Of a DNA stretch of 32,176 nucleotides, positions 13,073 through 31,965 are shown piece after piece. Position 1 is the first letter of the stretch. Each line of letters begins with the position of its first letter. The stretch comes from Thioalkalivibrio denitrificans (GTDB taxonomy: Bacteria; Pseudomonadota; Gammaproteobacteria; Ectothiorhodospirales; Ectothiorhodospiraceae): contig NZ_MVBK01000049.1 of assembly GCF_002000365.1 (NCBI RefSeq), positions 1 to 32,176 on the forward strand, read 5' to 3'. The notes beneath the pieces were generated by a model. The model did not search any database, was not told the DNA's origin, and was given only the letters and a program-made list of their open reading frames with translations. Both the position numbers and the translations under genes were made by a program.

Positions 13073-13929
13073 CTGCTTTGTTCAACTTGTCTGCGGTGAC
13101 GGCCGCCGGACCGACGGGTCGGTTTGTGGCTCCTGCCATCCGCCTGCTGCCTGAAGCTCTCGAGGTCGGCAGCCAGATACGTCTCGATCCCTGACACGGT
13201 GGCCTCCAGTTGCGGCCAGCACTCGCCTACCGTCTCCCAGTCCTCCGCGGCCACGGCCGACTCCATGCGGCCCGCCAGCGTGGCGAATCGCGCCGCGCCG
13301 ACAGCCCCGGCGGCGGACCACTGCCGATGCAGGTAACGCTTCAAGGGCCGGGCATCCCGCGCCTCGATGGCCCGGGCCGCCTCCGCCATTCCCGCGCGCG
13401 CCGACTCGACGAACAGGTGGATCAGTCGACGCGCGTCCTCGGCACCGTCCTCACCCAGCAATCCCCGCAGTACAGCGGGGTCCAGGTCGGGGGAGCCGTC
13501 ATCGGGATCGGGGCACGAGGCTGGCGACGCAGGTTCGGGATTGGAGCCGTCGATCCAGTCTTCGAGCAGGGCCTTCAGGCGCTCCACACTCACCGGCTTG
13601 ACCAGCACGTCGTCCACACCCGCGGCCCGCAGACTCGCCAGCGTCTCGGGATCGCTCTCTCCGGTGACCGCGATCAGCGCCGGGGCGGAAACCTGCCCGC
13701 GGAATCGCTCATGCAGCCGGCGCAAGAGTTCCTCGCCGCCCATGCCGGGCAGCCCAAGATCGGTCAGGACCAGCCGATAGCTGACCCGCTCCATTCGTTG
13801 CAGCGCCGATTCGGCATCGGGGACGGCATCCACCTTGACCCCGAGCATTCCCAGTTGCCGCTTCAGGAGTTTCCGGTTGACCGGATGGTCCTCCACGAGC
13901 AGCGCCCGGGAATCACAGGCCCATTTCAC
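13069..13929 (-). CDS. REC-Hpt phosphorelay protein with a divergent Hpt motif
   Basis: A 286-residue protein. The receiver (about 7-125) has E13-D14, Asp57 (LVLTDLGLPGMGG) and Lys111. After a Pro/Asp-rich linker comes a helical domain (about 148-262) that fits Hpt by position and helix pattern. The presumed phospho-histidine is His201 in YLHRQWSAAGAVGA; the usual H-x-L-K-G-S is changed to H-R-Q-W-S-A, so Lys and Gly after the His are lost. The basic C-terminal tail (265-286) has no known role. The start is GTG at 13929, overlapping the TGA of the upstream HTH-REC gene, and its stop overlaps the ATG of the big kinase. It could shuttle phosphate from the hybrid kinases to the output receivers, but the altered Hpt motif makes this uncertain. 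Confidence 0.85.
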   Translation of the reverse strand: MKWACDSRALLVEDHPVNRKLLKRQLGMLGVKVDAVPDAESALQRMERVSYRLVLTDLGLPGMGGEELLRRLHERFRGQVSAPALIAVTGESDPETLASLRAAGVDDVLVKPVSVERLKALLEDWIDGSNPEPASPASCPDPDDGSPDLDPAVLRGLLGEDGAEDARRLIHLFVESARAGMAEAARAIEARDARPLKRYLHRQWSAAGAVGAARFATLAGRMESAVAAEDWETVGECWPQLEATVSGIETYLAADLESFRQQADGRSHKPTRRSGGRHRRQVEQSR

Positions 13930-14525
13930 GATGCCCTCCGGTCACGGCTGAGCATCCCCTCGATATGACTGCGCAAGGCCGCAAAGGGTATGGGCTTTGC
14001 GTAGACGGGGATCTCGGGCGGCAACCCGCCCCGGGAGGCGATCTGCTCCGGGGTGAGGGCCGTGACCACCACGACCTCGCTGATGCCCGGCACGTGCTCC
14101 AGCAGGTGACGGATCATCCGGAACCCGTCCATGCCGGGCATGTCCAGATCGCTGATCACCAGATCCGGGACCTGACGGCCCACCTGAACGAGACCGTCAA
14201 AGCCGTTCTCCGCGAGGCGTACGTCCAGGTTCAGCCCCCAGCGGGCGAACTGCAGCCGGTAGAGTTCCCGCTGCACCGGCTCGTCCTCCACCACCAACAC
14301 CCGCAGGTGCCCGGCGCGTGCCTTGGCTGCGCTGCGCTGCTCCGAGTACAGCGCGTCCACTGCTGCACGTGATACCCGCCGGTGCCCGCCCGGGGTTTTC
14401 CAGGCGGGCAGCACCCCGGCCTCCACCCACAACTGCACCGTAGTCAGCGACACGTCGAGCACACGTGCCGCCTCGCGGGTGGTGTAGAAATCCCGTTGTT
14501 TCCTTGACTGCTTCTGCTTCGCCAT
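13926..14525 (-). CDS. Response regulator with N-terminal excisionase/MerR-like HTH and C-terminal receiver
   Basis: A 199-residue protein. A winged HTH of the excisionase/MerR-like (HTH_17) type lies at about 13-60 (FYTTREAARVLDVS, then WKTPGGHRRVS in the wing). A receiver at about 74-195 has E80-D81, phospho-acceptor Asp126 (LVISDLDMPGMDG) and Lys177. The order DNA-binding then receiver is the reverse of most response regulators. It heads the overlapping block of relay genes. Its upstream gap is AT-rich and holds a perfect palindrome TGTTAACA (14535-14542) and the motif at 14545-14557, which could be operator sites for its own product (inference). DNA targets are unknown. Confidence 0.92.
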   Translation of the reverse strand: MAKQKQSRKQRDFYTTREAARVLDVSLTTVQLWVEAGVLPAWKTPGGHRRVSRAAVDALYSEQRSAAKARAGHLRVLVVEDEPVQRELYRLQFARWGLNLDVRLAENGFDGLVQVGRQVPDLVISDLDMPGMDGFRMIRHLLEHVPGISEVVVVTALTPEQIASRGGLPPEIPVYAKPIPFAALRSHIEGMLSRDRRAS

Positions 14526-14588: not shown

Positions 14589-16307
14589 TCAGACCGCCCG
14601 GGACCCCTGCCAGCGGTAGACCGCCTCCGCGAGACTGCCGCCGGCGAAGAACTCCAGGGATTCACACAACTCCCGTACCAGCGCAATGCCGCGTCCCCAC
14701 GGACGAAGCAGCGCCTCCTCGACGGGGACCAGCGTCCCGGGGTCGAATCCCCGCCCACTGTCCGATATGCGCACGACGAGCTGGCCGCCGTCATCCAGAG
14801 GCTCGTAAGAGAGCTCAAGGGCAATGGACCCGCGCACACCCTCGGCCAGACGCCGGGCACGCTCCGTGTAATAGGCATCGAAACCGTCGGAATCCACCTT
14901 CATGGTGGACGGCAGTCTCATGAGGCCGTGCTCCAGGGCATTGGCGTAGAGCTCGCTGACAATGACCTCCAATGCCCCCGCATGCGCCTCAAGGCCATCC
15001 AGGAGCCCCAGCGGACGCAGGGCCTCAAGTACTGCGGGCGCGCCGACCAGACGCCGGTCTGCCCATTCCATGGACCAGCGCCAGCCGTCCGTCATGCCCG
15101 CGCCCTTGCCGTGCGCTCGCGGCCCCGACACGCCGTCCATGGGGATCTCCACCACCGTGATGTCGTCGCGCTGCTCAACACCTGCGCAGTGGGCATCCAG
15201 CGTCCTCACCAGCTCGGGCAGCAACGGGCCGCCGACAGCCGTCTCCATCAGGGAGTACAAGGCGGCCTCCCCGAACATGGTCCCGTCAAGCCCTTCCGCT
15301 TCCAACAGACCGTCGGAGACCATCAGGAGCCGCTCGTCGCCCTGCACGGGGACGCGCTCGAGTGCGCCGTCGCCGGGCAGCTCCGGCAGGATGCCCAGCG
15401 GCAGGGAACGGGAAGACAACACACGTCGGCCCCGGGGCCCGGACAACAGCGCGCAGGGCATGCCCCCGTTCCAGAAGCGCAGCTCCCCGTCCCGGGCCGG
15501 GAGGGTGGCCATGCACGCGGCCATGAATCGGTCTGCCGGCAACAGCTCGAACAGCCTGCGGTTGATCTCCGCGAGCAGGTCCGTGTCACGCGCACCGTCC
15601 CAGCTCATGGAGTGGAAAATCTCCGTCACCGGCAAGGCGCCGATGGCCGCTCCCAGGCCGTGGCCCGTGAAATCCCCCACCAGCACACGCAGTCCGCCGT
15701 CCGGCAGGTGGGCGGTGAGCACCAGGTCACCGCAGAAAAGCGTCGCGGGCCGCTGCAGCACCCCGATCCGATCGGTTGCCACGTTGCGCGCGGCCACGAC
15801 CCGGTTGAAGATGCGTTCCGCCAGCTGCTGCTCCAGCAGGTCACGCTCATGAGCGCAGGTCAGCATCCGATGTTGTTCCACCAGGCGGCGGTTCAGATCC
15901 CGGATGCGCTCCATGGCCCGTACCCGGGAATTCAAGGCCGCAAAACTGAACGGCTTGCCGAGGAAGTCGTCCCCGCCCGCTTCGGTGCATCGCCACATGG
16001 AGTCGTCGTCTTTCAGGGCGGTGAGAAAGATCACCGGCACGAAACGCTCTCCCGCCAGGGCCTTGATGCGCCGACAGGCCTCGATGCCATCCATCACCGG
16101 CATCATGACGTCCATGAACACCATGTCCACGTTGTCCGCCGAGAAGCGCTCCACCGCCTCCAGCCCGTTCTCGGCGCAGACGGTGGCGAAGCCCTCACGC
16201 TGGAGCAGCGCCTCGAGCAGTCCGCGGTTGGCCGGCGAATCGTCCACCACGAGCGCCGTGCCCCGGGAGCTCGCGGGCAAGGGCGGGTTCCCCGGTGGCG
16301 GAGACAT
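14589..16307 (-). CDS. REC-PP2C-HATPase partner-switch regulator (HsbR-like)
   Basis: A 572-residue three-domain switch protein. The receiver (about 15-135) has D22-D23, Asp66 (MVFMDVMMPVMDG) and Lys118. After a coiled coil, a SpoIIE/RsbU-type PP2C phosphatase (about 170-390) shows metal ligands in CGDLV (Asp194), GDFTGHG (Asp212), SDGLLE (Asp332) and RDDIT (Asp381-382). The C-terminal HATPase (about 415-570) is RsbW-like: SELYANALEHG (Asn456) and ISDSGRGFDP (Asp516). Family knowledge: Pseudomonas HsbR has this architecture and both dephosphorylates and phosphorylates the STAS protein HsbA. The STAS gene 16 bp upstream is the obvious partner. The ATG at 16307 was chosen because upstream the frame only re-reads the STAS gene; its ribosome binding site is weak. 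Confidence 0.93.
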   Translation of the reverse strand: MSPPPGNPPLPASSRGTALVVDDSPANRGLLEALLQREGFATVCAENGLEAVERFSADNVDMVFMDVMMPVMDGIEACRRIKALAGERFVPVIFLTALKDDDSMWRCTEAGGDDFLGKPFSFAALNSRVRAMERIRDLNRRLVEQHRMLTCAHERDLLEQQLAERIFNRVVAARNVATDRIGVLQRPATLFCGDLVLTAHLPDGGLRVLVGDFTGHGLGAAIGALPVTEIFHSMSWDGARDTDLLAEINRRLFELLPADRFMAACMATLPARDGELRFWNGGMPCALLSGPRGRRVLSSRSLPLGILPELPGDGALERVPVQGDERLLMVSDGLLEAEGLDGTMFGEAALYSLMETAVGGPLLPELVRTLDAHCAGVEQRDDITVVEIPMDGVSGPRAHGKGAGMTDGWRWSMEWADRRLVGAPAVLEALRPLGLLDGLEAHAGALEVIVSELYANALEHGLMRLPSTMKVDSDGFDAYYTERARRLAEGVRGSIALELSYEPLDDGGQLVVRISDSGRGFDPGTLVPVEEALLRPWGRGIALVRELCESLEFFAGGSLAEAVYRWQGSRAV

Positions 16308-16323
16308 CGAATGGGATACCGAG

Positions 16324-16629
16324 TCAGTCAATGTCGAACAACCTCGGAAAGTTGGCGATGTCCAGTACACGCCGCACCTCCGGCGTGCACCCCGTGATGC
16401 GCACGCGGGCGTCGTCGCCGCCCGCATGCTCACGCAGGAGCAGAAGCATGCCGAGCGCCGCGCTGTCCACGTAGGTAACACCCTTGAGGTCCACCACGTA
16501 GTTCATGTGTCCGGACGGCAGATCGCGATACGCGTCCCGGAACGCGCGCTGCTGGGCGAAATCGAACCGGCCGCTGACGGATATCACGGCCCGTTTTCCG
16601 TTATCGCCCAAGGTGTATCTGATACCCAT
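16324..16629 (-). CDS. STAS-domain anti-anti-sigma factor (HsbA-like)
   Basis: A 101-residue single STAS domain. The motif VTYVDSAALGMLLLLRE at 51-67 contains the expected phospho-serine (Ser56) of SpoIIAA/RsbV/HsbA proteins. The ATG at 16629 follows AGGAG with about 5-nt spacing. Unphosphorylated, such proteins bind an anti-sigma factor or another partner; the phosphatase/kinase encoded immediately downstream would set the phosphorylation state. No sigma or anti-sigma gene is in the window, so the final partner (FlgM or a diguanylate cyclase in the Pseudomonas case) is not known here. Confidence 0.94.
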   Translation of the reverse strand: MGIRYTLGDNGKRAVISVSGRFDFAQQRAFRDAYRDLPSGHMNYVVDLKGVTYVDSAALGMLLLLREHAGGDDARVRITGCTPEVRRVLDIANFPRLFDID

Positions 16630-16760: not shown

Positions 16761-17945
16761 TCAGAACAACTCCACCGAACCCTCTTCAACGGACGTCTGC
16801 GACACGGGGCAATGGCGCTCGCGCTGCCATGTCTCGCGCCGCTCACGGACGCGTTCGGCGAGCTCGCCGCCATCCCCTGCGCCGTCCAGCTCCTGACACA
16901 ATTGCATCAACTGGCCGAGACTGCGCGATGCCGAGGCCAGGGCCTGTGAGGACATGTCCTCAAACTGCAGGGCGCGCACCGCGGTGGCCACCGCCTCGTC
17001 CAGCTCCGGACCCAGCATTGCAAGGGTATCCAGGGAAGACTGCATGCGGCTGCTGAGGGCCTCGGCGCGGCCGAACATGTCCTGAATGCGCTCCTTCTCC
17101 CGAAGGGTCTCGTTCATGTCCCGAGAGGCCATCCGGTTGACCGTTTCCTGCACCCGCGCCACCGCCTGGCGCGTCTCACCCACCTGGGTGCGTATCTGCT
17201 CGTTGAACTGGGCCGAGCGCTGGGACAGGCCGCGCACCTCCGTGGCCACCACCGCAAAGCCGCGCCCGGCCTCCCCCGCCCGTGCCGCCTCGATGCTGGC
17301 ATTGAGTGCCAGCAGGTTGGTCTGGTCCGCCAGGGCGCGGGACTCCTCCAGCAGACGGAAGATGCCGTCCAGATGTCCCAGCATGTCGTCCATGTGGTGG
17401 GCCGTCTGCACACTGAGCCTGCTCACCTGAACCAGGGTGTCAACGAAGAGTTGCAGGGCATCCTCCGACTTCGCGGCGAAACCGCTCATGAATCCGCTCA
17501 GAGTCATGGCGTCGCCCTGCTCGTCCTTCAACTCGATGCCGTCGCGCACCAGATCTCCCTGCTGGCGGGACAACTGGTGCAACCGGGTAAACGTATCGGA
17601 GAGTTCAGTAACCGCATGGCCGATCATGGAGGTGACCCGGTTCACCTCCTGCTCCACTTCACGCACCTCTCCTCCCACGGTCTCACGCACCTCGTCCAGG
17701 ACGCGTTCATGATGCCGCCTGTGGCTCTCAAGCGCCTGCGCGGGATCGGGGGCATCATCCGGCCGCGCGCCAGTCGGCCATCCGCCCATGATCACCGCGC
17801 CCAGAACGAGCGCCAGCAGCGCCTGCAGCCAGGCACCGCTGACAAGACCCATAAGCACCAGCACGACAGCCAACGCAATGCCCGTCCACCTCGGCCATTG
17901 CGCATCGCTCATGTGTTCCATCACGGATCTTGCCTGTTTCAACAT
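16761..17945 (-). CDS. Divergent membrane-anchored MCP-like signalling protein with CheZ-like motif and C-terminal VELF
   Basis: A 394-residue protein. Two hydrophobic segments (about 21-37 and 40-56) sit at the N-terminus with almost no periplasmic loop, so there is no external sensor. The rest is helical with an MCP hairpin tip at about 200-245 ([28 protein letters not shown], in two recognisable halves). HAMP and classical methylation helices are not apparent. Near the C-terminus LQFEDMSSQ (326-334) holds Asp330-x-x-x-Gln334, the spacing of the catalytic Asp143/Gln147 pair of CheZ. The protein ends EEGSVELF, matching the VELF end of CheD. The start at 17945 is favoured by AAGGAG 5 nt upstream, just after the cheB stop; longer starts would overlap cheB. 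It may be an array component or a CheY-P phosphatase-like element (inference). Confidence 0.85.
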
Positions 17946-17950
17946 CATCG

Positions 17951-17956
17951 CTCCTT
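17951..17956 (-). promoter_or_regulatory. Ribosome binding site deciding the MCP-like gene start
   Basis: AAGGAG on the minus strand lies 5 nt before the ATG at 17945 and only 2 nt before the alternative ATG at 17948. It overlaps the last base of the cheB stop codon, which supports translational coupling and the 17945 start. Confidence 0.7.
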
Positions 17957-19059
17957 CATCCCGCATGGGCCGCAGGCTGGCGGAAGGCGGCGCGCAACAG
18001 GGCACCCGCGATGGCCTCCAGCGGCAACACCTCCTCCGCCGCCCCCCGTTTCACCGCCGCCCCGGGCATGCCCCAGACGACGCTGCTCGCTTCGTCCTGG
18101 GCCAGGGTCCGGCCCCCGGCGTCGCGCATCTCCCTGAGCCCCCGGGCACCGTCGTCGCCCATGCCCGTCAGCAGTGCCCCCACCGCGTTGATGCCCGCGC
18201 TCTGGGCCACCGAGCGAAACAGCACGTCCACGCTCGGACGATGCCGGTTCACCGGGGGACCGTCGCTCAGGTCGCACACGTAACGGGCGCCGTCGCGCCG
18301 CACCAGCAGGTGGCGCCCCCCCGGGGCGATGTAGGCGTGACCCGGCAGGAGCTGCTGGCCGTCGCGCGCCTCGCACACGGACAGGGCGCTCACCCCGTCC
18401 ATGCGCCGGGCGAACGGGCCGCTGAACTCGGCGGGGATATGCTGGGTGATCACGACGCCGGGGGCATCGGCGGGCAGTCGCTGCAGCACCTCGCGGATCG
18501 CCTCGGTGCCGCCCGTGGAGGCCCCGATGGCGATGATCGCATCCGTGGTCCTGAAAGGGCGGCCCCCGGGACGCGCATTGAGCACCGCGTCGGCACCGAG
18601 CCTGGGGGGCGCGCTGCCCGTCACCGCCGACACGCGCTCCCGTGTCAGGCGCGAGCGCGGCACCCGGGCGGCGGTCTTCACCTTGGCACGGATCTCCTCG
18701 GCGTACTCCTGCATTCCCTGCTGCACATCGATCCTGGGCTTGGAAACGAAATCCACCGCGCCCAGCTCCAGGGCCTGGAGGGTGATCTCCGCGCCTCTTT
18801 CCGTCAGGGAGGAGATCATCACCACCGGCAGGGGATGAAGCCGCATCAGGTTGCCCAGAAAGGTGATGCCGTCCATGCGCGGCATCTCCACATCGAGCGT
18901 CAACACATCCGGATGCAGCGCCTTGATCCGCTCCCGGGCCGCATAGGGATCCGGCGCCGTGCCCACCACCTCGATCTGCGGGTCGCCCCCCAGGATCTCG
19001 GTCAGCAGCTTGCGAATCAGCGCAGAATCGTCGATGACCAACACCTTCACCCTGTTCAT
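17956..19059 (-). CDS. cheB: Chemotaxis protein-glutamate methylesterase/deamidase CheB
   Basis: A 367-residue enzyme that removes methyl groups from receptor glutamates. The receiver (4-120) has D10-D11, Asp56 ([12 protein letters not shown]) and Lys107. After a basic linker, the methylesterase domain (172-362) holds the catalytic triad Ser181 (GASTGG), His207 (ITQHIP) and Asp303 (GMGDDGARG). The ATG at 19059 begins [12 protein letters not shown]; earlier in-frame starts only re-read cheD in another frame. The order cheR-cheD-cheB is that of the Pseudomonas aeruginosa che2 cluster. All catalytic residues are intact. Confidence 0.97.
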
Positions 19060-19144
19060 TGTCTGCCTCGATACCCATAGGGCGGCCCGTGGCCGCCGTG
19101 CCGTCGACCGGCATCGCCGGCTCCATGGCCGTCCGTCGTTCGCA

Positions 19145-19795
19145 TCAGAAAAGCTCCACCTCGCCCTGCACCGGCTTCGACTCGATCTCATGCAGATAGC
19201 GCGTCTCGCGCTCGAGGACGGTGTTGTTGTGCAGGGAGCGCAGCTTCTTGACCAGCATCCTGCCGGTGGCGGGGGTGTAATAGACCTTGCGCGGATGGAT
19301 GTCCCCCAGGTCCTGGGAGAGCACCCGCAGACGCTCGGCGCGCACATACTCCTGCACAAAACGGATGTTCTGGTCGCCGACGTCCGTCATCTGCGCAAGG
19401 ACACGCCCGCCGCCGGTGAGCTTGACCTCCAGCGCCTCCCGCCGGCCGCCGTGCTTGAGGATCTCGTTGATCAGCCGCTCCATGGCATGGCTGCCGTAAC
19501 GGGTGGAGGCGTCGACCCCCCTGGCCTCCCAGCTCCCCGCACCCAGACTCACCGGCAGCATGAAGTGATTCATGCCGCCCACGCCGGTCTCCGGATCCCG
19601 GATGCAGGCCGAGACGCAGGACCCCAGCACGGTGACGATGGTCTCGTTCTCCGCGGTCACGTAGAACTCGCCTGGCAGGAGCTTGGCGGCGTACATGCCG
19701 TGGGCATCGTCCCAGTAACGGTTGATGGCAGCGAAACCGGGCAGCGCCCTGGGCATGGGCGCACGGACCTGGTTATGGCGCACGGGGGTGTCCAT
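19145..19795 (-). CDS. cheD: Chemoreceptor glutamine deamidase CheD, with C-terminal VELF
   Basis: A 216-residue CheD. The catalytic Cys60 lies in [14 protein letters not shown] and His77 in GGMNHFMLP, with conserved Thr residues nearby; the family converts receptor Gln to Glu. The ATG at 19795 sits one base after the TGA of cheR, so coupling is likely. The protein is longer than the Thermotoga enzyme because of an N-terminal extension of about 40 residues and a C-terminal tail. The tail ends VQGEVELF, closely like the SVELF end of the MCP-like protein encoded two genes downstream. Function is secure; the tail role is open. Confidence 0.96.
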
Positions 19796-19796
19796 C

Positions 19797-20657
19797 TCAG
19801 CGCTTCCGGTAGATTGTGCCGCCCACGGAGTCGAAGCGATCGTTGATCCGGAACAGACTCTCCGAGTGACCGATATACAGGTAGCCGCCCGGTGCCAGAA
19901 TGTCCGCGTAGCGGTCGAACAGGTTGCGCTGGGTCTTCTTGTCAAAATAGATCACCACGTTGCGGCAAAAGATGATGTCGAACGGGCCGCGCATCGGCCA
20001 CGGGCCGAGGAGGTTCAGGGGACGAAAAGCGATCATCTCGCGCAGTGAAGGGTGCACCCGGCACTTGCCGGCGTTCGCCCCCGTGCCCTTCTGGAACCAC
20101 TGGCGCCGGCGCTTGGAGTCCATGTCCCTGACGCGCTCGATGGGGTAGACACCCGTATCGGCCCTGGCCACCACGTTGGTGTCGATGTCGGTAGCCAGGA
20201 TACGGGTGTCCCAGCCGGAGAGCGCGGCACTCTCCCCGAGCACCATGGCGATGGAGTAGGGCTCCTCCCCCGTGGAGCAGCCCGCGGACCAGATGCGCAG
20301 ACGCCGCGTGGCGGCGTTGCGCTCCAGGACTTCGGGCACGGCCGTACGCGCCAGATGCTCGAAGTGATGATTCTCACGAAAGAAGGCGGTCAGGTTGGTG
20401 GTGATGGCGTTGACCAGCTCACCCAGCTCGCTTTCCGGGTCCTCCTCCAGGCGCGCGCAGTATTCGTCGAAGCTGCGCAGACCCAGCTGCCGGATACGCC
20501 GCGCCAGACGCCCGTACATCATCTGGCGTTTGTTCTCCCCCAGTACGATACCGGTGTGCTCCGAGGCCAGACGGCGCAGTTTGTCGAAGTGACGGTCGGT
20601 GAACTGGAACTCCCGGATCTCTGTATCCACGGGACGAACTCCCCTCTTGGCCGCCAT
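19797..20657 (-). CDS. cheR: Chemotaxis protein methyltransferase CheR
   Basis: A 286-residue S-adenosylmethionine-dependent methyltransferase that methylates receptor glutamates. The N-terminal helical domain (about 15-90) includes the basic helix GRLARRIRQLGL. NLTAFFRE (88-95) precedes the SAM site SAGCSTGEEPYS (124-135), ATDIDT (155-160) and FCRNVVIYFD (230-239). The ATG at 20657 was chosen because CheR proteins normally begin about 15-20 residues before the FxFTDRHF segment; a GTG at 20711 would add 18 residues and is a real alternative, as neither start has a strong ribosome binding site. A receptor two genes upstream carries a CheR-docking pentapeptide. Confidence 0.95.
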   Translation of the reverse strand: MAAKRGVRPVDTEIREFQFTDRHFDKLRRLASEHTGIVLGENKRQMMYGRLARRIRQLGLRSFDEYCARLEEDPESELGELVNAITTNLTAFFRENHHFEHLARTAVPEVLERNAATRRLRIWSAGCSTGEEPYSIAMVLGESAALSGWDTRILATDIDTNVVARADTGVYPIERVRDMDSKRRRQWFQKGTGANAGKCRVHPSLREMIAFRPLNLLGPWPMRGPFDIIFCRNVVIYFDKKTQRNLFDRYADILAPGGYLYIGHSESLFRINDRFDSVGGTIYRKR

Positions 20658-20759
20658 GGCCGCCCGCCCGGGCGGTCCTTGGTACGCCACACAGGATGCC
20701 GCCGGGTTCACTCAGGTACCCCCCCCGTTCGCCGGTGCCGGACAACTCGCACCGATCAC

Positions 20760-22772
20760 TCAGGAGGCACCCGCGTGGGCGGCCACCATCGAATCCTCGG
20801 ACACCGGATTCTCGCGCTTCCCGCCTTGGACGGTGTGCGCCTGAGCGCCCGCGCCGGCGGTCCGAAAGAAGCTCATGATCTCCACCATGCGCTGAGCCTG
20901 CTCCTCCATGGAACGCGAGGCCGCGGCCGCCTCCTCCACCAGCGAGGCGTTCTGCTGCGTCACCTCGTCCATCTGCGTGATCGCCTTGTTCACCTGCTCG
21001 ATCCCCGCCGACTGCTCCTGGCTCGCCGCGGCAATCTCCGCCACGATGTCGGTCACCTTCTTCACACTCTCCACAATCTCCGTGAGCGTCTTGCCGGAGT
21101 TGTCCACCAGCTCCGATCCGTTCTTCACCTTCTCCACCGAATCCTTGATCAGGTCCTTGATCTCCTTGGCCGCACCCGCGGAACGCTGCGCCAGATTGCG
21201 CACCTCCGTGGCCACCACCGCAAAGCCCCGGCCCTGCTCCCCGGCACGCGCCGCCTCCACCGCCGCGTTGAGCGCCAGCAGGTTCGTCTGGAAGGCGATC
21301 TCGTCGATTACGCTGATGATGTCGGCAATCTTGCGGCTCGAGGCGCTGATCTCGTTCATGGCCGAAACCGCCTGGGAGACCACCTTGCCGCCCGTCTCTG
21401 CCTGGCCGCGCGCGCCGATCGCCAGCTGATTGGCCTGGCTCGCGCTGTCGGCGTTCTGCTTCACCGTGGAGGTCATCTCCTCCATGCTCGACGCCGTCTC
21501 CTCCAGCGCGGATGCCTGCTCCTGCGTGCGCTGACTCAGATCGTCATTGCCCGTGGCGATCTCCTGGGCGGAGGTGCCCACGGCATCGGAGGCCTGACGG
21601 ACCTCAGTGACGATCCCGGCCAGCTTCTCCACCATGGTCCTCATGGCGGCCATCAGGCTGGTGCTGTCACCGCTGCGCACGGGCACCTGCACATCCAGTT
21701 CACCCGCGGCGATGCGGCCCGCGATGGACGCGGCCAGGGCGGGCTCGCCGCCCAGCTGCCGCAGGATGCTGCGAATGGTTGAAAAGGCCAGCAGGGCCGT
21801 GGCCGCCAGCGCCATGGCCGTGAGCAACAGGAACAGGTAGAGGGTATTCTGCGCGCCGGCACGCAAGGCCGCAGCCGCGTCCATGAGATCCACCGCCAGG
21901 CGGTCCTCCACGTCCTTGAGCCGGTCGATCCTGCCCGTGACCATCTCGAACCAGTGATCGGCGTCCACGTTCAGGGGGCGCCCGTCGATGCCCTCCACGG
22001 CCGTACGCACCATGCGCTCCGACGCCTCCACTTCGCGTCCGCTTACGGTCTGGCGGAAGAACTGCATCTGCTGCTCGCCGGCGGCCACCTCGAACTCGTG
22101 AAAATAGGTAGCCTGGGCGGCGGCGTTGCTCAGGAAACGCTCCACCATCTCGGGCGTGAAGCTGCCCGCGCCAAACACGACGTTGAGCACGGCGCGCTCG
22201 ATGCCGGCCCGCTCCTTGGCATGGGACAAGTTCGAATAGGCCGTGGCGAGCCGCGTCACCTCGCGGTCGTCGCTGAGCAGCATCGCCTGACGGCCCACGG
22301 ACAGCAGCGAGGCGATGGTGCGGGTGTAGTAGCCCAGGGCATCCGCGCCGGCGATGGAATGGTTGCTGATGGCGCCGCGCGTGGAATCCAGTTCGCGCAG
22401 GTCCCGCTCGGCCGCGTTGAGTGCCTGGATCAGGTCAGCGGACTGTCCGGAACGGTCAAAGGCCTGCAGGGTGGTGTTGAGTTCACCCAGCATGCGATCG
22501 GACTGCGTGCGCTGGGCCGGCAGTTCCGAGGCAAAGCGCTCGCCGCGGCTGGCCAGGAAGCCCCCGGTCATGCCGCGCTCGATCTGCAACTCGTGCGCCA
22601 CTGCGGAGAAACGCACCGACAGTTCCGCCAGGGCCTCAAGGTCCTGCATGGCGTTGGCCGTGCGCGACCGGTCCAGCACGCTGTTCACGGAGAAGAACAG
22701 CAGCCCGATCACGGGGAAGGCCAGAACCAGAAGCAGCCTGGCGCGTACGGTCATGTTATTGAATGAAATCAT
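20760..22772 (-). CDS. Methyl-accepting chemotaxis protein with NIT sensor domain
   Basis: A 670-residue receptor. TM1 is at about 11-33, TM2 at 311-333. The periplasmic domain contains the NIT signature [16 protein letters not shown]...QR (62-88), named for nitrate/nitrite-sensing proteins; the true ligand is unknown. A HAMP region (about 333-385) leads to an E. coli Tsr-like 36-heptad signalling domain with methylation helix [16 protein letters not shown] (420-435) and tip [20 protein letters not shown] (490-509). The C-terminus (ends VAAHAGAS) lacks the CheR-docking pentapeptide, so its methylation may depend on tagged neighbours in the array. The ATG at 22772 follows AGGAGGGAG. Residues 408-638 differ from the upstream MCP at only four positions. 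Confidence 0.95.
20859..21551 (-). repeat. Duplicated MCP signalling-domain DNA, copy 1
   Basis: Nearly identical DNA to 23040-23732 at a constant offset of 2181 bp, encoding 231 residues with four amino-acid differences. The sequences upstream (sensor, HAMP) and downstream (C-terminal tail) are unrelated or far more diverged. Confidence 0.92.
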
Positions 22773-22823: not shown

Positions 22824-24575
22824 TCAGAACTCTTGCCATTCGTCGGGCTCGGCGACCGGGCGCAGCGGCTTGCGCGGCGGGGGTGGCGGCTCCGGGCGTG
22901 GCTTTGCGGCCTGTACTGGCTTGGACTTGGGTTTTTCGGGTTTAGGCTTGTCCTGCCCGTTGGTCTTCGCGGCGGCCGGAGCCGCCTTCTCCTGACGCAT
23001 CGGCACGGAAGCCGTCACGGCACGGGCCGCGGCCGCGCCGGTGCGGAAGAAGCTCATGATCTGCACCATGCGCTGGGCCTGCTCCTCCATGGAACGCGAG
23101 GCCGCGGCCGCCTCCTCCACCAGCGAGGCGTTCTGCTGCGTCACTTCGTCCATCTGCGTGATCGCCTTGTTCACCTGCTCAATGCCCGCCGACTGCTCCT
23201 GGCTCGCCGCGGCAATCTCCGCCACAATGTCCGTCACCTTCTTCACGCTCTCCACAATCTCCGTGAGCGTCTTGCCGGAGTTGTCCACCAGCTCCGATCC
23301 GTTCTTCACCTTCTCCACCGAATCCTCGATCAGGTCCTTGATCTCCTTGGCCGCACCCGCGGAACGCTGCGCCAGATTGCGCACCTCCGTGGCCACCACC
23401 GCAAAGCCCCGGCCCTGCTCGCCGGCTCGCGCCGCCTCCACCGCCGCGTTGAGCGCCAGCAGGTTCGTCTGAAAGGCGATCTCGTCGATTACGCTGATGA
23501 TGTCGGCAATCTTGCGGCTCGAGGCGCTGATCTCGTTCATGGCCGAAACCGCCTGGGAGACCACCTTGCCGCCCGACTCTGCCTGGCCGCGCGCGCCGAT
23601 CGCCAGCTGATTGGCCTGGCTCGCGTTGTCGGCGTTCTGCTTCACCGTGGAGGTCATCTCCTCCATGCTCGACGCCGTCTCCTCCAGCGCAGACGCCTGC
23701 TCCTGCGTGCGCTGACTCAGATCGTCGTTGCCTGAGGCGATCTCACGGGCAGACGAGCCCACGGAATCAGACGCCGTGCGCACCTCGCCGACGATCTCCG
23801 AGAGTTTGCCGGACATCTCCCGCAGGGCGGTGAGCAACCGGCCCAGCTCGTCGTTTCGCTGCACCTGGATGTCATTGTCCAGTTCTCCCTGCGCAATGCG
23901 GTTGGCCACCGTCACCGCCTGGTTGAGCGGGCCCATGATGGCGCGCACCAGCAGCCACCCCATGGCGACCAGGAACACGAGGCCGAAGCCCATGGCGAGC
24001 ACCGTATACAGCCGCAGGTTCTCGTAGAGCGTCACGGCGTTGGCGTATTCCTCGCCGGCCACGTCGATCTGAAGACGCAGCAGCGCCTCGATGTTCTCCC
24101 CCACCGGTTCAAACAGCCGCATCATGTTGGCGTTGATGTGGGCACGGCTCTGCTCGAACTCGCCGGCGCGCAACAGCGACTGCGCCGGACGCAGCCCCTC
24201 CTGCACGAACCGCCCGCGGTTCCGGGCGAAGTCCTCCGCCAGGCGCGCCTCCTCCGGGGTCAGGTAAGTCGCCATGTACTCGTCCCAGATGCGGGTGATG
24301 GTGGCGATATTGGCGTCCATGCGTTCCATGTCCCGGCGGGCAGCCTGTGCGTCGGCATTCATGGTGGAACGGGTGGCCAGGTTGATGTTTTCCTGCAGCA
24401 ATCGTCCGATGTTGCGCAGCTGATCCAGGGGAACGGTGCGGTCCTCGTAGACCGTCTGCAGACCGTCGCGAACCATGCCAAGGCCGGTAATGCCCATGGC
24501 GCCCACCATCAGCAACAGCACGATCGCCACCGCCAGGGTGACATTCAATCGCAGCTTGACCGTAAGAGACTTCAT
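22824..24575 (-). CDS. Methyl-accepting chemotaxis protein with 4-helix-bundle sensor and C-terminal CheR-docking EWQEF
   Basis: A 583-residue receptor. TM1 is at about 10-33, a helical periplasmic domain of the 4HB_MCP type at 34-188, TM2 at 189-210, HAMP at 211-263, and a 36-heptad signalling domain with methylation helix (293-310) and tip (363-395). A flexible Lys/Pro/Ala-rich linker (about 513-577) ends in EWQEF, matching the [N/D/E/G]WxxF pentapeptide that tethers CheR (NWETF in E. coli Tar, GWEEF in Pseudomonas Aer2). It therefore probably serves as the methyltransferase anchor for this array. The gene lies between cheW and the NIT-domain MCP; the ATG at 24575 precedes a typical short cytoplasmic N-terminus. 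Confidence 0.96.
23040..23732 (-). repeat. Duplicated MCP signalling-domain DNA, copy 2
   Basis: Partner of 20859-21551 (offset 2181 bp, no indels). It starts within the FFRT codons after the signalling domain and ends at the GNDDL codons, where similarity drops abruptly. Confidence 0.92.
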
Positions 24576-24596: not shown

Positions 24597-25124
24597 TCAT
24601 TCGGTTGCGCGGGAGATAGCGCTCAGCTCTTCCGGCCTCAACAGGCGGTCGATGTCCAGAAGCATCACCATGCTCTTGTCCAGGGTGGCCAGACCGCTGA
24701 TGAAGTCGGCGTCCACCACCGTGCCGAAATCCGGCTTCGGGCGGATGTCCTCGGGCGCGAAGTTCAGCACGTCCGAGACCGCATCGACGACGATGCCGAA
24801 TGTGCGCTCGCGGTCTTCGTGCATGAGCGACAGCACGATCACCACCGTGGTGGGGGTGTATTCCACCGATTCCAGGTTGAAGCGCATGCGCAGGTCCACG
24901 ATGGGCACGATAACGCCGCGCAGGTTCAACACACCCTTGAGATAGGCCGGCGCGTTGGGGATCTGGGTCACCGGGGTCCAGCCCTTGATCTCCTGAACGC
25001 GCAGGATGTCCACCCCGTAGTACTCGTCGGCCAGGGAGAAGGTCAGGTACTGGTTGACCTGTGAATCGCCGGCCTTCCCGGCGGTCTCCCGAAGACTCTG
25101 CTCTTGCTTGATCACCTGGGTCAT
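24597..25124 (-). CDS. cheW: Chemotaxis coupling protein CheW
   Basis: A 175-residue SH3-like adaptor that links receptors to CheA. The CheW fold starts at about residue 24 (YLTFSLADEYYGVDILRVQEI) and includes the conserved NLRGVIVPIVDLR (67-79) and a GIVVDAVSDV segment. A 20-residue polar N-terminal extension precedes it. The ATG at 25124 overlaps the TGA of cheA (ATGA) and is preceded by AGGAGG 4 nt upstream, inside the cheA end, so the two proteins should be made in a coupled ratio. Confidence 0.97.
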   Translation of the reverse strand: MTQVIKQEQSLRETAGKAGDSQVNQYLTFSLADEYYGVDILRVQEIKGWTPVTQIPNAPAYLKGVLNLRGVIVPIVDLRMRFNLESVEYTPTTVVIVLSLMHEDRERTFGIVVDAVSDVLNFAPEDIRPKPDFGTVVDADFISGLATLDKSMVMLLDIDRLLRPEELSAISRATE

Positions 25125-27205
25125 ACAGCCTCCTCAATCTGGGCCCGTTTTCGTACGGCGTCCTGCGCCGGCGGATTGGTCATGCGGATCAGTCCGGGGA
25201 TGTCCATGATCAGCGCGACGGAGCCGTCACCGAGGATCGTCGCCCCCGAGGTGCCCTCCACGCGCCGGAAATTGGTTTCGAGACTCTTGATCACCACCTG
25301 CTGCTGACCGAGCAGTTCGTCCACGAACACGGCGGCCCGCTGGCCGTCGCCCTCCACGACCACCAGCAGGCCCTTGGTGAGGTCCTCGGTATCGCCCCGA
25401 ACGCCGAACACCCGGTGCAGGCGGATCACCGAGAGATACTCGTCGCGCAGCCGGTAGACCTCGGCCATACCCGCCACCACGTTGAGCGACTCAGGCATGG
25501 CCTGCAGCGATTCGATGATAGAGACCAGCGGGATGATGTAGATCTGCTCGCCCACGCGTACCAGCTGGCCGTCCAGAATGGCGAGCGTCAGCGGCAGGCG
25601 GATGGTGATGCGCGAACCCTGTCCCTGGCGCGAGGTGATCTCGACGCTTCCACCCAGGTCCTGGATGTTGCGCCGAACCACGTCCATGCCGACACCGCGC
25701 CCGGATACATCGCTCACCGTCTCGGCCGTGGAGAAGCCGGGCTGGAAGATGAGGTCGCACACCCGCTCATCGGGCATCGCGGCCGCATCCGCCTCGCTGA
25801 TCAGGCCCCGCTCGATGGCTTTTTTCAGCACCTTCTCCCGGTTGATGCCGGCGCCATCGTCGATGATCTCGATAACGATGTTGCCCCCCTGGTGGTACGC
25901 GTTGAGCAGAAGATGACCGGTAGCGGGCTTGCCGGCGGCCAACCGCACCTCCGGGACCTCCAGACCGTGATCCAGCGCGTTGCGCACCAGGTGCACCAGT
26001 GGATCGCCGATCTTCTCCATGACCGTCTTGTCCAGTTCCGTGTTCTCGCCCGACATGCTCAGTTCCACCTGCTTGCCCAGCTGCGCGCTCAGATCGTGCA
26101 CCAGGCGCGGAAAGCGGTTGAAGGCGAAGCTGATGGGCAGCATGCGGATGCGCATCACCGATTCCTGGAGTTCCCGGGTGTTGCGTTCCAGTGACGTCAG
26201 ACCGTCGCGCAGCTTCTCCAGCTGCACCTGCGAGCCGCCCTGCACCAGTTCGTTGCCGATCTGGCCCAGCATGGACTGGGTGATCACCAGCTCACCCACC
26301 ATGTTGATGAGGGCATCTATCTTGTCGGTGTTGACACGAATGGAGCCGGTGTCGGCACGCCGGTCGCCCGCCCCACGGCGGTCACCACCGGAACGCCGAT
26401 CAAACCCGGAACGGGTCTGCGCAGGCGGATTCACCCCGGAGCCGGCGGACGCATGCTGCGCGACGGCCGTCGATGATTGAACGGGTGCCGCCACCTCGCC
26501 GCCCGAGAGCGGCTCTATGCGCAACTCGCACTGATCCTCCACCCACTCGAACACCTCGTTGACCGCCTCCCGACCCACGGGACCTTCGAGGCGGATATCC
26601 CAGGACAGCAGACAGTCCTCCGGATCGAGCTCCTCAAGGGAGGGGAGCCGCGCCAGATCACACGTCACCTGCACGCTGCCCAACTCCTCCAGGGCTGCGA
26701 GAATGCGCAACGGATCGTTCCCGGTACGCATGACATCGGGCTCCGGGGCAAATCGTATGTGCCATCCGGCGCCATTCCCTCCGGTGCTTACCGCAGTCTG
26801 CTCAGGCATCGGGGCGGTGTTTTCCTCGTTAAGCGAGGCGTCGATGGCACTTCGCACCGTGGCGATGCGCTGCGCGTCCACCTCCACGCCGTCACGGGCG
26901 GCCACCAGCATCTCGCGCATGCAGTCCACCGCCTCCAGCAGAAGCTTCACCAGTTCGGGGCTGACCGCGCGGCGCCCCCCGCGCATCTCATCGAGCAACG
27001 TCTCGACGCCGTGGGTAAACTCGCCTACGGGACCAAAGCCAAAGGTCCCCGCACCGCCCTTGATGGAATGCGCCGCTCGAAAGATAGTGTTGATCGCCTC
27101 CACGTCGTCCGCCTGAAGCTCCAGCAACTGGGACTCCATGGCATCCAGACCCTCGAAGCTCTCGTCGAGGAAGGTCTGCACGAACTGGCTGACATCGATG
27201 CTCAT
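25121..27205 (-). CDS. cheA: Chemotaxis histidine kinase CheA
   Basis: A 694-residue kinase. P1/Hpt (1-125) has the phospho-histidine His46 in AAHSIKGGAGTFGF. A P2-like regulator-binding domain follows (about 146-235), then a Gly/Arg/Asp-rich linker (252-285), the P3 dimerisation helices (about 288-355), the P4 ATPase (356-540) with the N-box HLVRNALDHG (Asn409, His413), DDGAGI (449-454) and GRGVGMDVV (502-510), and a P5 CheW-like domain (542-680). All catalytic motifs are present. The start at 27205 lies 9 bp after the cheY stop. It phosphorylates CheY and CheB, and perhaps other receivers nearby (inference). Confidence 0.97.
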   Translation of the reverse strand: MSIDVSQFVQTFLDESFEGLDAMESQLLELQADDVEAINTIFRAAHSIKGGAGTFGFGPVGEFTHGVETLLDEMRGGRRAVSPELVKLLLEAVDCMREMLVAARDGVEVDAQRIATVRSAIDASLNEENTAPMPEQTAVSTGGNGAGWHIRFAPEPDVMRTGNDPLRILAALEELGSVQVTCDLARLPSLEELDPEDCLLSWDIRLEGPVGREAVNEVFEWVEDQCELRIEPLSGGEVAAPVQSSTAVAQHASAGSGVNPPAQTRSGFDRRSGGDRRGAGDRRADTGSIRVNTDKIDALINMVGELVITQSMLGQIGNELVQGGSQVQLEKLRDGLTSLERNTRELQESVMRIRMLPISFAFNRFPRLVHDLSAQLGKQVELSMSGENTELDKTVMEKIGDPLVHLVRNALDHGLEVPEVRLAAGKPATGHLLLNAYHQGGNIVIEIIDDGAGINREKVLKKAIERGLISEADAAAMPDERVCDLIFQPGFSTAETVSDVSGRGVGMDVVRRNIQDLGGSVEITSRQGQGSRITIRLPLTLAILDGQLVRVGEQIYIIPLVSIIESLQAMPESLNVVAGMAEVYRLRDEYLSVIRLHRVFGVRGDTEDLTKGLLVVVEGDGQRAAVFVDELLGQQQVVIKSLETNFRRVEGTSGATILGDGSVALIMDIPGLIRMTNPPAQDAVRKRAQIEEAV

Positions 27206-27214
27206 GATGACCGG

Positions 27215-27577
27215 TCAGCCAAGGACACGCTTGACGGTGGACAGCAGCTGATCCGGACTGAAGGGCTTGACGATCCAGCCGGTGGCACCGGCCGCCTTGC
27301 CCTCCTGCTTCTTCTCCGGGCTGGATTCGGTGGTCAGCATGAGGATGGGCGTGAACTTGTAGCTGGGCAGGGATCGCAGTTCGCGCACAAGGGAGATCCC
27401 GTCCATGCCCGGCATGTTGACGTCCGAAAGCACCAGGTCCACGCCTCCCCCCTTGGCCTTTGTAAGGGCATCACGCCCGTCGGTCGCCTCCAACACGTCA
27501 TGACCGGCCTCCTTCAGGGTGAAAACAACCATCTGGCGCAACGAGGTCGAATCATCTACCGCAAGAATCTTTGCCAC
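27215..27577 (-). CDS. cheY: Chemotaxis response regulator CheY
   Basis: A 120-residue single receiver. D8-D9, phospho-acceptor Asp52 (LVLSDVNMPGMDG), Thr82/83 in LTTESS and Lys104 in IVKPF are all present. The start is GTG at 27577 (VAKILAVDDS) with GGAGA 7 nt upstream; longer starts run into the STAS gene in another frame. It is the diffusible output of the CheA in this operon; no flagellar motor gene is nearby to show what it binds. Confidence 0.96.
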   Translation of the reverse strand: MAKILAVDDSTSLRQMVVFTLKEAGHDVLEATDGRDALTKAKGGGVDLVLSDVNMPGMDGISLVRELRSLPSYKFTPILMLTTESSPEKKQEGKAAGATGWIVKPFSPDQLLSTVKRVLG

Positions 27578-27605
27578 TGGCTTCTCTCCGTTGCTTCCTG
27601 TCAAC

Positions 27606-28205: not shown

Positions 28206-31200
28206 CTATCGTTCCCCGTCCAGCCGGTGCAACAGATCCTCCACGGCCCGTTCGAGCTGGGGATCCCGGCCGGCCACCTCGTCCTCGGGCGTCTGGTCCA
28301 CCGGCAGGTCGGGCATGGCCCCGTGATGCTCCATGTCGGTTCCGTCCGGCAGATACCAGCCGCGGTACGGTCGCCGTACGGTGGCGCCGTCGATCAGGCT
28401 GTACCGGCCGCTGGAGATCACACCGCCGTAGGTCTGGCGGCCCACGAGCGTGCCGCGATCCAGCGTTGTGAACGCGTGCGCAAGAATCTCTGCATTGGAA
28501 TAGCTCTTCTCGTTGGCCAGCATATTGATGGGCAGGGTGTAGCGCGGCGCATCAAGCCTGCCCTGCGGGTAATGGCCGGCCTGTTCGGGGTCGGCGCCGG
28601 CCGGGACGGTGTAGGCATGCTCCGGCGCCATGATGGACGTGAGGATGCGATCCGTCGTGCTCCCTCCGCCGTTGTTGCGTACATCGATGATCAGACCCTC
28701 CCTGCCCTCCGCGGCGGCGTACAGGTCGGCCTGAAACCCTTCGAGGGAGGTCTGGTTCATCGCCTGAATGTGCAGATACCCGATCCGCCCGTCGGAGAGC
28801 GTGTTGACGGTGCGGCGGCTCTCCTCCAGAAAGGCCTCGTAACGAAGCCGGGCGAGCGCGTCGTAATCCACCGGTGTGATCAGAGTGCGATAGACGTTTC
28901 GCAGGGTCCCGACCGGACGTTCCAGGGTCACGATGACCTCCTGCCCGACACGTCCGCGCAGTCGCCGTGTGAGCGACTCATCCGGCTCGAAGGGCTGCAG
29001 GTCGACCTCAGTGACGATGTCGCCCTCCCGGAGCTGCATCGAACCGCTATCGGCAGGGCCGTTTGGCACGATGCCGGTGATTCGAAAACCGACATAGCCG
29101 TTCGCCAGGGTCACGGTCTCGTGCTCGATGCCGAGGCGCCCGACCGGTTGCCGCAACGGCGAGCCCGGGCCGGGATTGGATACGCCCGTGTGCGATGCCG
29201 CCAGTTCACCCATCAGGCGGTTGGCCACGTCGCTGAACTCGCTCGGCGTGCGCGCGCGCGCGATCAGCGCCTCGTAGTCTTCCACCACGGTGGCCCAGTC
29301 GAGCCCCTTCATGTCAGGGCGATAGAAGTGCTCCTCGATCATGCGTGCCGCCTCGTGAAACTTCTGCAGGGACTGGCGCCGCAGATCGACGCGGATGGTA
29401 TCCGATATGTCGAGTTGACGGTGCACCGGATTCCCGCTCAGGTTCACCATGCCCACGCGACCCCGGGAGATGTAGATCAGCCGGTCTCCGGCGTTGTCCA
29501 GGTGCTGCACGTTGACCTCGGGCCCCAGCGGCTGCCTCAGACTGCCGTCCCAGTTCATGACGATCAGCCCCTCCCCCGCGGAATTGAACACGTAACGATC
29601 CCCCCCGGGGCTCATCTCGTTGGAAAACTGATGCGTCGGTTGCGCCGTCACGCGCTTCACACGTCGCCAGGCCCCTTCCAGGTCGAGGTCGAGTTCCTCG
29701 CCGGCCCGGGCGCTCCCGTCCCGATCACTCTCCGACTGTCCTGCGGCGGCTGCCGTGCGCGCGTCACGGTAGTACCTTGTCAGCTCCCTTGCCGTGTAGC
29801 GCTCCAGATCCCGGTCGAGGTATACCCGGTAGAGGTCGTAGCTGCCACCGGATCGGTTGGAAATGAACGTCAGTTTGCGTCCATCCGCGGACCAGCGGGG
29901 GTTGATGTCGTCACGCGGATGTCGGGTGATGTTGACCGGATCCCCCGATCCGTCTGCAGCCACGATGAAGATGTTGGCACTGAAGTTGAGATCGTTCTGG
30001 GCGTAGACGATATACCGACCGTCAGGCGACCACCGCCAGCGAATGGTGCTGTCCCACCCGCGTACCAGCCTGTGCTCGTCACCGCTTTCCAGGTGCCTGA
30101 CCACCAGGTCACCCCGTCCGCGCCGAAACGCAATGTACTGTCCGTCGGGCGATGGCGCGGCATCCCGTTCGTTATGTTCCGTCTGCACCACCGGCAGCAC
30201 CGTGAACATCACGGCCTCGTGCCAGCGTGCGGGATCGTCCGCCAGGGGCGGCTCCCGCGCGGGGGTCGGCTCCAGTTCCCGCTCTGGAATGCTCTCCGGC
30301 AGTTCGGGCAGTTCCTGGATCGGCTCGGGCAGCGCTGCCGGGTCGGTGGGCGTATCGGGATCCGGCTCCGCGAGTGGATCATCGGGGATGGCGGGATCCA
30401 CCGGGGCGAACGGGTCTTCCGGATCCAGCGCGGGTGGTTCGGGTTCCGGCTCCGGTTCGTCGGCCTGATCCGGCTCGGCCGTCGCCCCCGTTGCATCCGG
30501 GACGTCGGCGGCGGCCCGGGGTGCGGGATCCGGTGTCGCGGCAGACTCACCGCCGGGGTGGCGTTCGTAGGTGCGACGGATCTCGCCACGCGTCAGTGCC
30601 ACGCGCGCTTCGTAGATGGACTCCGTCCCATCGGAGTCATTGGTGAAGTACAGACTGACGCCGTCGGGGGACCAGGCCAGATCCCTGTGACGGGCATGGG
30701 TGCCGGGTGTCACGGCGCGGGTGGCGCTGTGCCGATCCGTATGGCGCACATAGACACGCCCATACGCGATATAGGCCATGGTCCTCCCGTCGGGACTCAG
30801 CCTCGCCTCGGTCACATCCCGGTCGATGCGGCGCAGTTCGTGGTCGTCATGGCCCTCGTCGCCCACATGCATGCGGACCGGCCGGGGTTCGGCCTCAGGA
30901 TCGGTGAGATCCAGCGTATAGATCGTGTCCCAGACATGGAGCACTGCCGTGTCGCCGTGACGTGCCACATCGAAATGCTGGATATCGCGCCCCTCGAACC
31001 CGGTCAGGCGCCGGACCTGTCGGTCCTCGTCGTCCAGATCGACACGATAGAGATTGACGGTATCGAGTTCACGATCCGACATGAAAACCAGGGTGCGACC
31101 ATCGACCCACTGGGCGTTGCCGTCGTCTCCGTCCCGATCCGTCAGCGCCTCGAAAGTGCCTTCCCGACGGTCCAGTATCCAGATGTTCATCGCATCCGGA

Positions 31201-31814: not shown

Positions 31815-31965
31815 CCATCCCAAACCCGTATCGTCAGGGACGCACCAAGGCGGATCCCTGCGGGTCACTATGCCAGAGAGAAAATGATGCGTCAGGCCTG
31901 TCTCCCGAGGGCGACACCTGAGGAAGATTTGTTACCAAGTGTTCAAGCGCTGTTTCAAGAGATTG

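Follow-up and report, generated by a model that had tools for sequence, protein, structure and literature searches.

A receptor-shaped protein encoded in a chemosensory cluster of Thioalkalivibrio denitrificans carries what we take, with slightly better than even confidence and on the basis of sequence comparison, to be a CheZ-like CheY-P phosphatase module, split in two by the signalling hairpin of the receptor. The window (the whole stretch of DNA analysed, 32,176 nucleotides) holds the gene together with the cluster around it, and the features that matter for the argument are these:

16761..17945, minus strand: McpA-like, MCP-shaped protein of 394 residues (open reading frame with its ATG at 17945; Pfam MCPsignal; family assigned by gene order as in PMC7184735)
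17772..17897, minus strand: double transmembrane anchor, residues about 17-58 (hydropathy; AF2 helices 2-35 and 39-54)
17535..17711, minus strand: N-terminal part of the putative CheZ-like module, residues about 79-137 (profile of the stand-alone module; AF2 helix)
17046..17501, minus strand: MCP signalling hairpin, residues about 149-300, tip at Glu225 (Pfam MCPsignal; VIA-align to Tsr/Tm chemoreceptors)
16881..17018, minus strand: C-terminal module helix, residues about 310-355 (profile of the stand-alone module, whole genome)
16944..16967, minus strand: motif QFEDMSSQ, residues 327-334, with D330 and Q334 (conservation in orthologues and in the wider family)
16764..16814, minus strand: conserved C-terminal tail, residues 378-394 (tail pattern counts)
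27215..27580, minus strand: cheY of the F7 cluster, the proposed substrate, a single receiver domain with its start inferred (Pfam Response_reg)
25121..27205, minus strand: cheA (Pfam)
24597..25124, minus strand: cheW (Pfam)
19797..20711, minus strand: cheR (Pfam)
19145..19945, minus strand: cheD frame (Pfam)
17956..19359, minus strand: cheB frame (Pfam)
16324..16629, minus strand: STAS anti-sigma-factor antagonist (Pfam)
14589..16481, minus strand: receiver - SpoIIE/PP2C phosphatase - HATPase protein, the presumed output together with the STAS protein (Pfam)

Pfam matches the 394-residue protein solely with MCPsignal (residues 181-320, 3.2e-27) and detects no ligand domain in it. The AF2 monomer model has a helix over residues 68-137 and a break at 138-148, and the hairpin tip reads EAARAGE (Glu225), which places D330 at tip+105 and Q334 at tip+109. 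The original prediction, of an MCP tip and a short double anchor with no ligand domain, is borne out by Pfam, hydropathy and AF2. On the same strand the genes run in the order cheY, cheA, cheW, two MCP genes, cheR, cheD, cheB, the McpA-like gene, STAS and receiver-PP2C-HATPase, an arrangement that fits the F7 'stage 1' type of cluster (PMC7184735) minus one cheW-like and one STAS gene. The McpA-like gene adjoins cheB and the STAS gene, not cheY. With its MCP hairpin, its place between cheB and the STAS/serine phosphatase genes, and a C-terminus that has no CheR pentapeptide, the window protein is an McpA-like receptor of an F7 system, a relative of PA0180/CttP and VCA1088.

Both this receptor family and its conserved C-terminus are already known. 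The McpA-like receptors PA0180 (CttP/McpA), VCA1088 and SO_2117 share with the window protein the F7 gene position, the anchor, the hairpin and the conserved C-terminus (PMC7184735, PMC9855816); that C-terminus is described as strikingly conserved with an unclear role, and the function of stage 1/2 F7 systems and of McpA-like receptors is stated as unknown (PMC7184735). McpA-like proteins are dispensable for F7 arrays (PMC7184735), and published work finds them with the F6 array, where a CheZ is already present, and not with the F7 array (PMC7184735, PMC9855816); the Shewanella protein McpAso, for example, co-localises with CheA3, the kinase of F6 (PMC9855816). F7 clusters of stages 1 and 2 have cheY and no cheZ (PMC7184735). 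The window agrees with this, and with an earlier statement that the cluster holds no cheZ, cheC or cheX: the three family models give zero matches against the main window ORFs. The CheX and CheC models find no match in the whole genome either, and the genome has one ordinary CheZ on another contig (G000:C29, 3.1e-74).

The remaining genes of the window provide some context for the cluster. One of its two other receptors (22824-24575, minus strand) is a TarH/HAMP protein whose C-terminal EWQEF conforms to the pentapeptide pattern by which F7 receptors tether CheR, and the second (20760-22772, minus strand) has a NIT nitrate/nitrite sensing domain and is a possible F7 input. At 13926-14525 (minus strand) a single protein joins an excisionase/MerR-type helix-turn-helix to a receiver domain, and after it come a receiver-Hpt protein and large hybrid kinases. 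A Tricorn-type protease (28206-31868, minus strand) adjoins the chemosensory cluster.

What drew attention to the protein was a helix reading LQFEDMSSQ, in which Asp330 and Gln334 were said to reproduce the spacing of the catalytic pair Asp143/Gln147 that CheZ brings to its complex with CheY. We locate the motif just as described (codons 16944-16967). By itself the spacing is no more than chance would give, because the genome encodes eight other MCPs and six of them carry a bare DxxxQ after the tip, and we rejected the bare DxxxQ as evidence. The longer patterns [FY]xDxxxQ and QFxDxxxQ after the tip occur, among the MCPs of this genome, in the window protein only. Four ordinary MCPs of the genome (L303-L306) share a DM[NT]xQ at tip+77, which is presumably structural.

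Conservation of the pair was the check proposed with the original prediction, and it comes out in favour: Asp and Gln are essentially invariant. A search with the full-length protein gave 24 orthologues (29-64% identity), all of which have both residues; V319, A322-R324, L326-D330 and Q334 do not vary among them, whether they face the core or not. Among 123 wider relatives Asp is kept in 120 and Gln likewise in 120, figures that are somewhat favourable in that the selection used no motif pattern but did use profiles containing the motif; 80 loci fetched by the pattern AVR[ASL]LQFED were left out of these counts. Three of the exceptions (L138, L139 and L156) are MCP-like paralogues in which Asp has become Glu, Gln is lost in two of the three and the tail is missing; in G144, G199 and G120 a degenerate copy of this kind has an intact one about 1 kb away. 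By the hydrophobic pattern of the sequence, D330 and Q334 are predicted to lie off the helix core, in a register that matches CheZ.

A profile of residues 296-394, run on 398 Pseudomonadota genomes, retrieves MCP-shaped proteins and also short proteins of 139-194 residues. These short forms consist of an N-helix resembling residues 79-137 of the window protein, followed directly by a helix with QF[QEHG]D[ML]xxQ and a tail ...G[SDE][IV][ED]LF, and they have neither membrane anchor nor MCP hairpin. A profile built from the short forms matches the window protein in two pieces, 79-189 and 290-394, and we conclude from this that the MCP hairpin lies within the module or else was removed from it. 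The N-terminal piece (residues about 79-137) scores iE 0.0016 within the protein and E 0.016 against the whole genome; a separate N-part (iE<0.05) is found in 22 of 47 McpA-like proteins, a median of 148 residues ahead of the C-part. The receptor hairpin thus divides the conserved unit, a helical module whose C-terminal tail ends in [IV]x[LF]F. The tail pattern is present in 190 of 193 module proteins as against 61 of 10574 other frames, and the window protein has it in the form GSVELF, with no CheR pentapeptide. Neither Pfam nor NCBIfam has a model covering the short forms, one of which has CheZ as its best Pfam match (E 0.014). In the plasmid records searched, the short form was not found, and the Vibrio McpA-like matches there came without gene annotation. 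A tree of the C-terminal 95 residues scatters the short forms over several places with weak support, and we therefore do not claim independent losses of the hairpin. A second stand-alone family of about 190 residues (L231, L234, L242, L244, L245) has AFQFYDKLxQRL and C-termini such as DDIELF and GEVELF; hhalign joins it to the short module with P 2.5e-8.

Now we consider the genes beside which these proteins are encoded. A family of genomes that is Burkholderiales-type by gene content has the short form, one each, in 93 of 150 genomes, and in all 31 loci of this type that we examined cheY and then cheA come after the short form (28 satisfy a strict distance rule, and the other three have an over-long cheY frame). 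The same order is found in L142 and L144, which belong to other families, and in the Pseudomonas-like L160, as well as in L172-L174, the full MCP-shaped form occupies that place before cheY. Conversely, in L178 and L184 the short form sits between cheB and the PP2C gene, that is, in the McpA position, with no STAS gene between. One named Vibrio record has the order cheA-cheW-cheW-mcp-cheR-cheD-cheB-X-STAS-PP2C, where protein X carries QFTDIIVQ and the tail SQESIEEGEVELF. Since proteins that lack the receptor part still keep the module with its motif and tail, it is the module and not the receptor hairpin that would carry the conserved function, and this persistence is our strongest argument. 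A different MCP-like protein (L163, 6685-8670), with QFQDRMTQ and the tail GITFF, has genes for a single receiver, a STAS protein and CheA after it, in that order; its arrangement suggests that the module may extend beyond F7 systems.

How close is this module to CheZ? The short-form profile was built from short forms only, with CheZ excluded. Run on the window's own genome, it returns just three matches up to E 0.1, namely the C-part of the window protein (3.8e-13), the genome's CheZ (0.002) and the N-part (0.016), and among its weaker matches in 369 genomes of the class are ordinary CheZ proteins, confirmed by reading their sequences. Against 10,864 frames the profile finds 29 of 29 independently fetched CheZ proteins at E<10, 23 of them at E<0.1, while the 57 ordinary MCPs all go unmatched. 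When 12 motif columns are masked, recovery of CheZ drops to 3/29 or 11/29 at E<10; with most of the similarity gone, convergence on a shared local motif may account for it. When hhalign compares the short module with CheZ, the alignment spans 61 columns and the two motifs coincide in it (pairwise P 9e-5, probability 59%), and the hydrophobic patterns of the two correlate best at zero shift (0.53). A median of 78 residues separates Asp from the C-terminus in the module, against 76 for CheZ, and proteins of both kinds mostly end in Phe. The Pfam CheZ model picks up QFQD proteins below its cut-off (3.4e-6 for L247); it leaves the window protein unmatched, and the best short form reaches 15.7 bits against a cut-off of 30.7 (PF04344). 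Two profiles searched against PDB sequences return no CheZ chain, the top matches of the short-form profile being a designed beta-propeller repeat. Foldseek and VIA-align, queried with the AF2 monomer, whose long hairpin makes a poor query, give receptors and other coiled coils, with CheZ not among the matches listed. As most of the similarity lies within the motif, we put common descent of the module and CheZ no higher than likely. Because masking removes most of the signal and the PDB and fold searches miss CheZ, we call the module CheZ-like and do not file it as CheZ. The two share an Asp/Gln pair at i and i+4 that sits, in matching hydrophobic register, on the C-terminal helix of a helical hairpin, and they also share a similar linker length, a conserved C-terminal peptide ending in Phe, a stand-alone module beside cheY and a sub-threshold profile similarity. 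They differ in the tail, DDLLSSLGF in CheZ and GxVELF in the module, and in that the module of McpA-like proteins is interrupted by an MCP hairpin and sits on a membrane anchor.

If the module works as CheZ does, the N-helix (residues about 79-137) and the C-helix (about 310-355) would form a helical hairpin, presumably dimerising into a four-helix bundle, with D330 and Q334 facing outward on the C-helix. Like Gln147 of CheZ, Q334 would enter the active site of phosphorylated CheY, or of another phosphorylated receiver, and position a water molecule there. Asp330 would hold the receiver, and the conserved tail would dock or tether it in the manner of the CheZ tail. Through its inserted MCP hairpin the protein would bring the module into a receptor array. 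VIA-align superposes residues 67-350 on Tsr 244-516, with D330 close to Tsr 496; the motif, 105 residues from the tip and near the second methylation helix of Tsr, would then lie in the membrane-proximal half if the protein is in an array. Dimerisation, docking, catalysis and the choice of substrate are all steps that we infer. The most likely substrate is the cluster's own CheY, because the short form adjoins cheY; next in line comes the receiver domain of the PP2C protein. Against the phosphatase reading speak the place of the gene in the window, away from cheY, the reported association of McpA-like proteins with an F6 array that has a CheZ, and the DxxxQ at tip+77 in ordinary MCPs.

The same conserved helix and tail could instead bind CheY-P or the PP2C receiver with no catalysis, sequestering the receiver or reporting its state to the array. 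The neighbour genes and the conserved tail would be the same in that case, and in Comamonas the F7 CheY1 sheds its phosphate fast and unaided (PMC6391922), so that a phosphatase may be unneeded. Docking of this kind leaves unexplained why precisely Asp and Gln are invariant at the CheZ spacing, and we hold it unlikely. Binding to the STAS or PP2C protein encoded after the gene, as in a partner switch, would account for the STAS and/or PP2C genes that come next in the window and in many loci. It is harder to reconcile with the Burkholderiales-type loci, where the module precedes cheY and cheA, with neither a STAS nor a PP2C gene seen between or beside them, and with L178 and L184, where the PP2C gene follows without an intervening STAS gene; we rate it as distinctly improbable.

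The original prediction had left a choice between a phosphatase and a structural helix motif of this receptor class, and here the evidence takes a side in part. A purely structural or adaptation role (packing, methylation, a CheD site), with the tail tethering an adaptation enzyme, would suit the position of D330 at the second methylation helix of Tsr and the recurrence of DxxxQ in other MCPs, and C-terminal pentapeptides do serve Aer2-like receptors as CheR tethers (PMC7184735). The published McpA-like tail, however, has no CheR pentapeptide, and McpA of P. aeruginosa binds no CheR protein (PMC7184735). A motif of the QFxDxxxQ type is also kept in short proteins that have no receptor hairpin, and the invariant residues include polar ones off the core and not those of the core alone. 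We rejected a methylation or CheD site on the ground that the motif persists in proteins without a receptor; nor does its sequence fit the usual consensus of such sites. A structural or adaptation motif is in our judgement very unlikely. The stand-alone form beside cheY, the CheZ-like profile match and the tail at a CheZ-like distance favour the phosphatase module over a purely structural motif, so that of the two readings first offered the phosphatase is the one that gains support.

Taken across genomes, these observations would be accounted for by an undescribed family of CheZ-related receiver phosphatases acting on F7 CheY, a generalisation to which we give somewhat less than even confidence. 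McpA-like proteins would be its split members, with an array-docking arm, and in other lineages, where the hairpin is missing, the protein would be small and encoded beside cheY, so that the mcpA-like gene reportedly lost from later F7 systems would partly survive. If the phosphatase module is real, it would explain how a cheY without a cheZ is switched off, why evolution keeps McpA-like proteins that arrays do not need in order to form, and how one protein could link F6 and F7 arrays. It would also be an instance of a single coiled coil that houses a signalling enzyme with a receptor hairpin nested in it. The stand-alone form, a soluble protein of about 150 residues, makes the phosphatase idea directly testable. 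Comamonas CheY1, encoded beside cheA, is known for fast phosphate loss and has been proposed as a phosphate sink (PMC6391922). Our own prediction is that the gene ahead of cheY1 encodes the short module. Among the freely accessible papers searched, we found no published account of the CheZ-like module, of the stand-alone form or of the link to CheZ.

A precedent has been reported in CheT, which dephosphorylates CheY-P, has a DxxxQ and shows no significant sequence similarity to chemotaxis proteins known before (PMC12654446). CheT of Sinorhizobium meliloti resembles our module in being a DxxxQ phosphatase with a predicted CheZ-like fold (PMC12654446), whereas in our case the activity is a proposal; it differs in being alphaproteobacterial, in binding CheR and in having no receptor fusion. 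A synteny search for CheT in alphaproteobacteria gave weak candidates only. At L288 (1712-2308, plus strand) a small protein encoded behind cheD, with a GIDLAVQ helix and the C-terminus GDFDFF, is a possible CheT-like protein.
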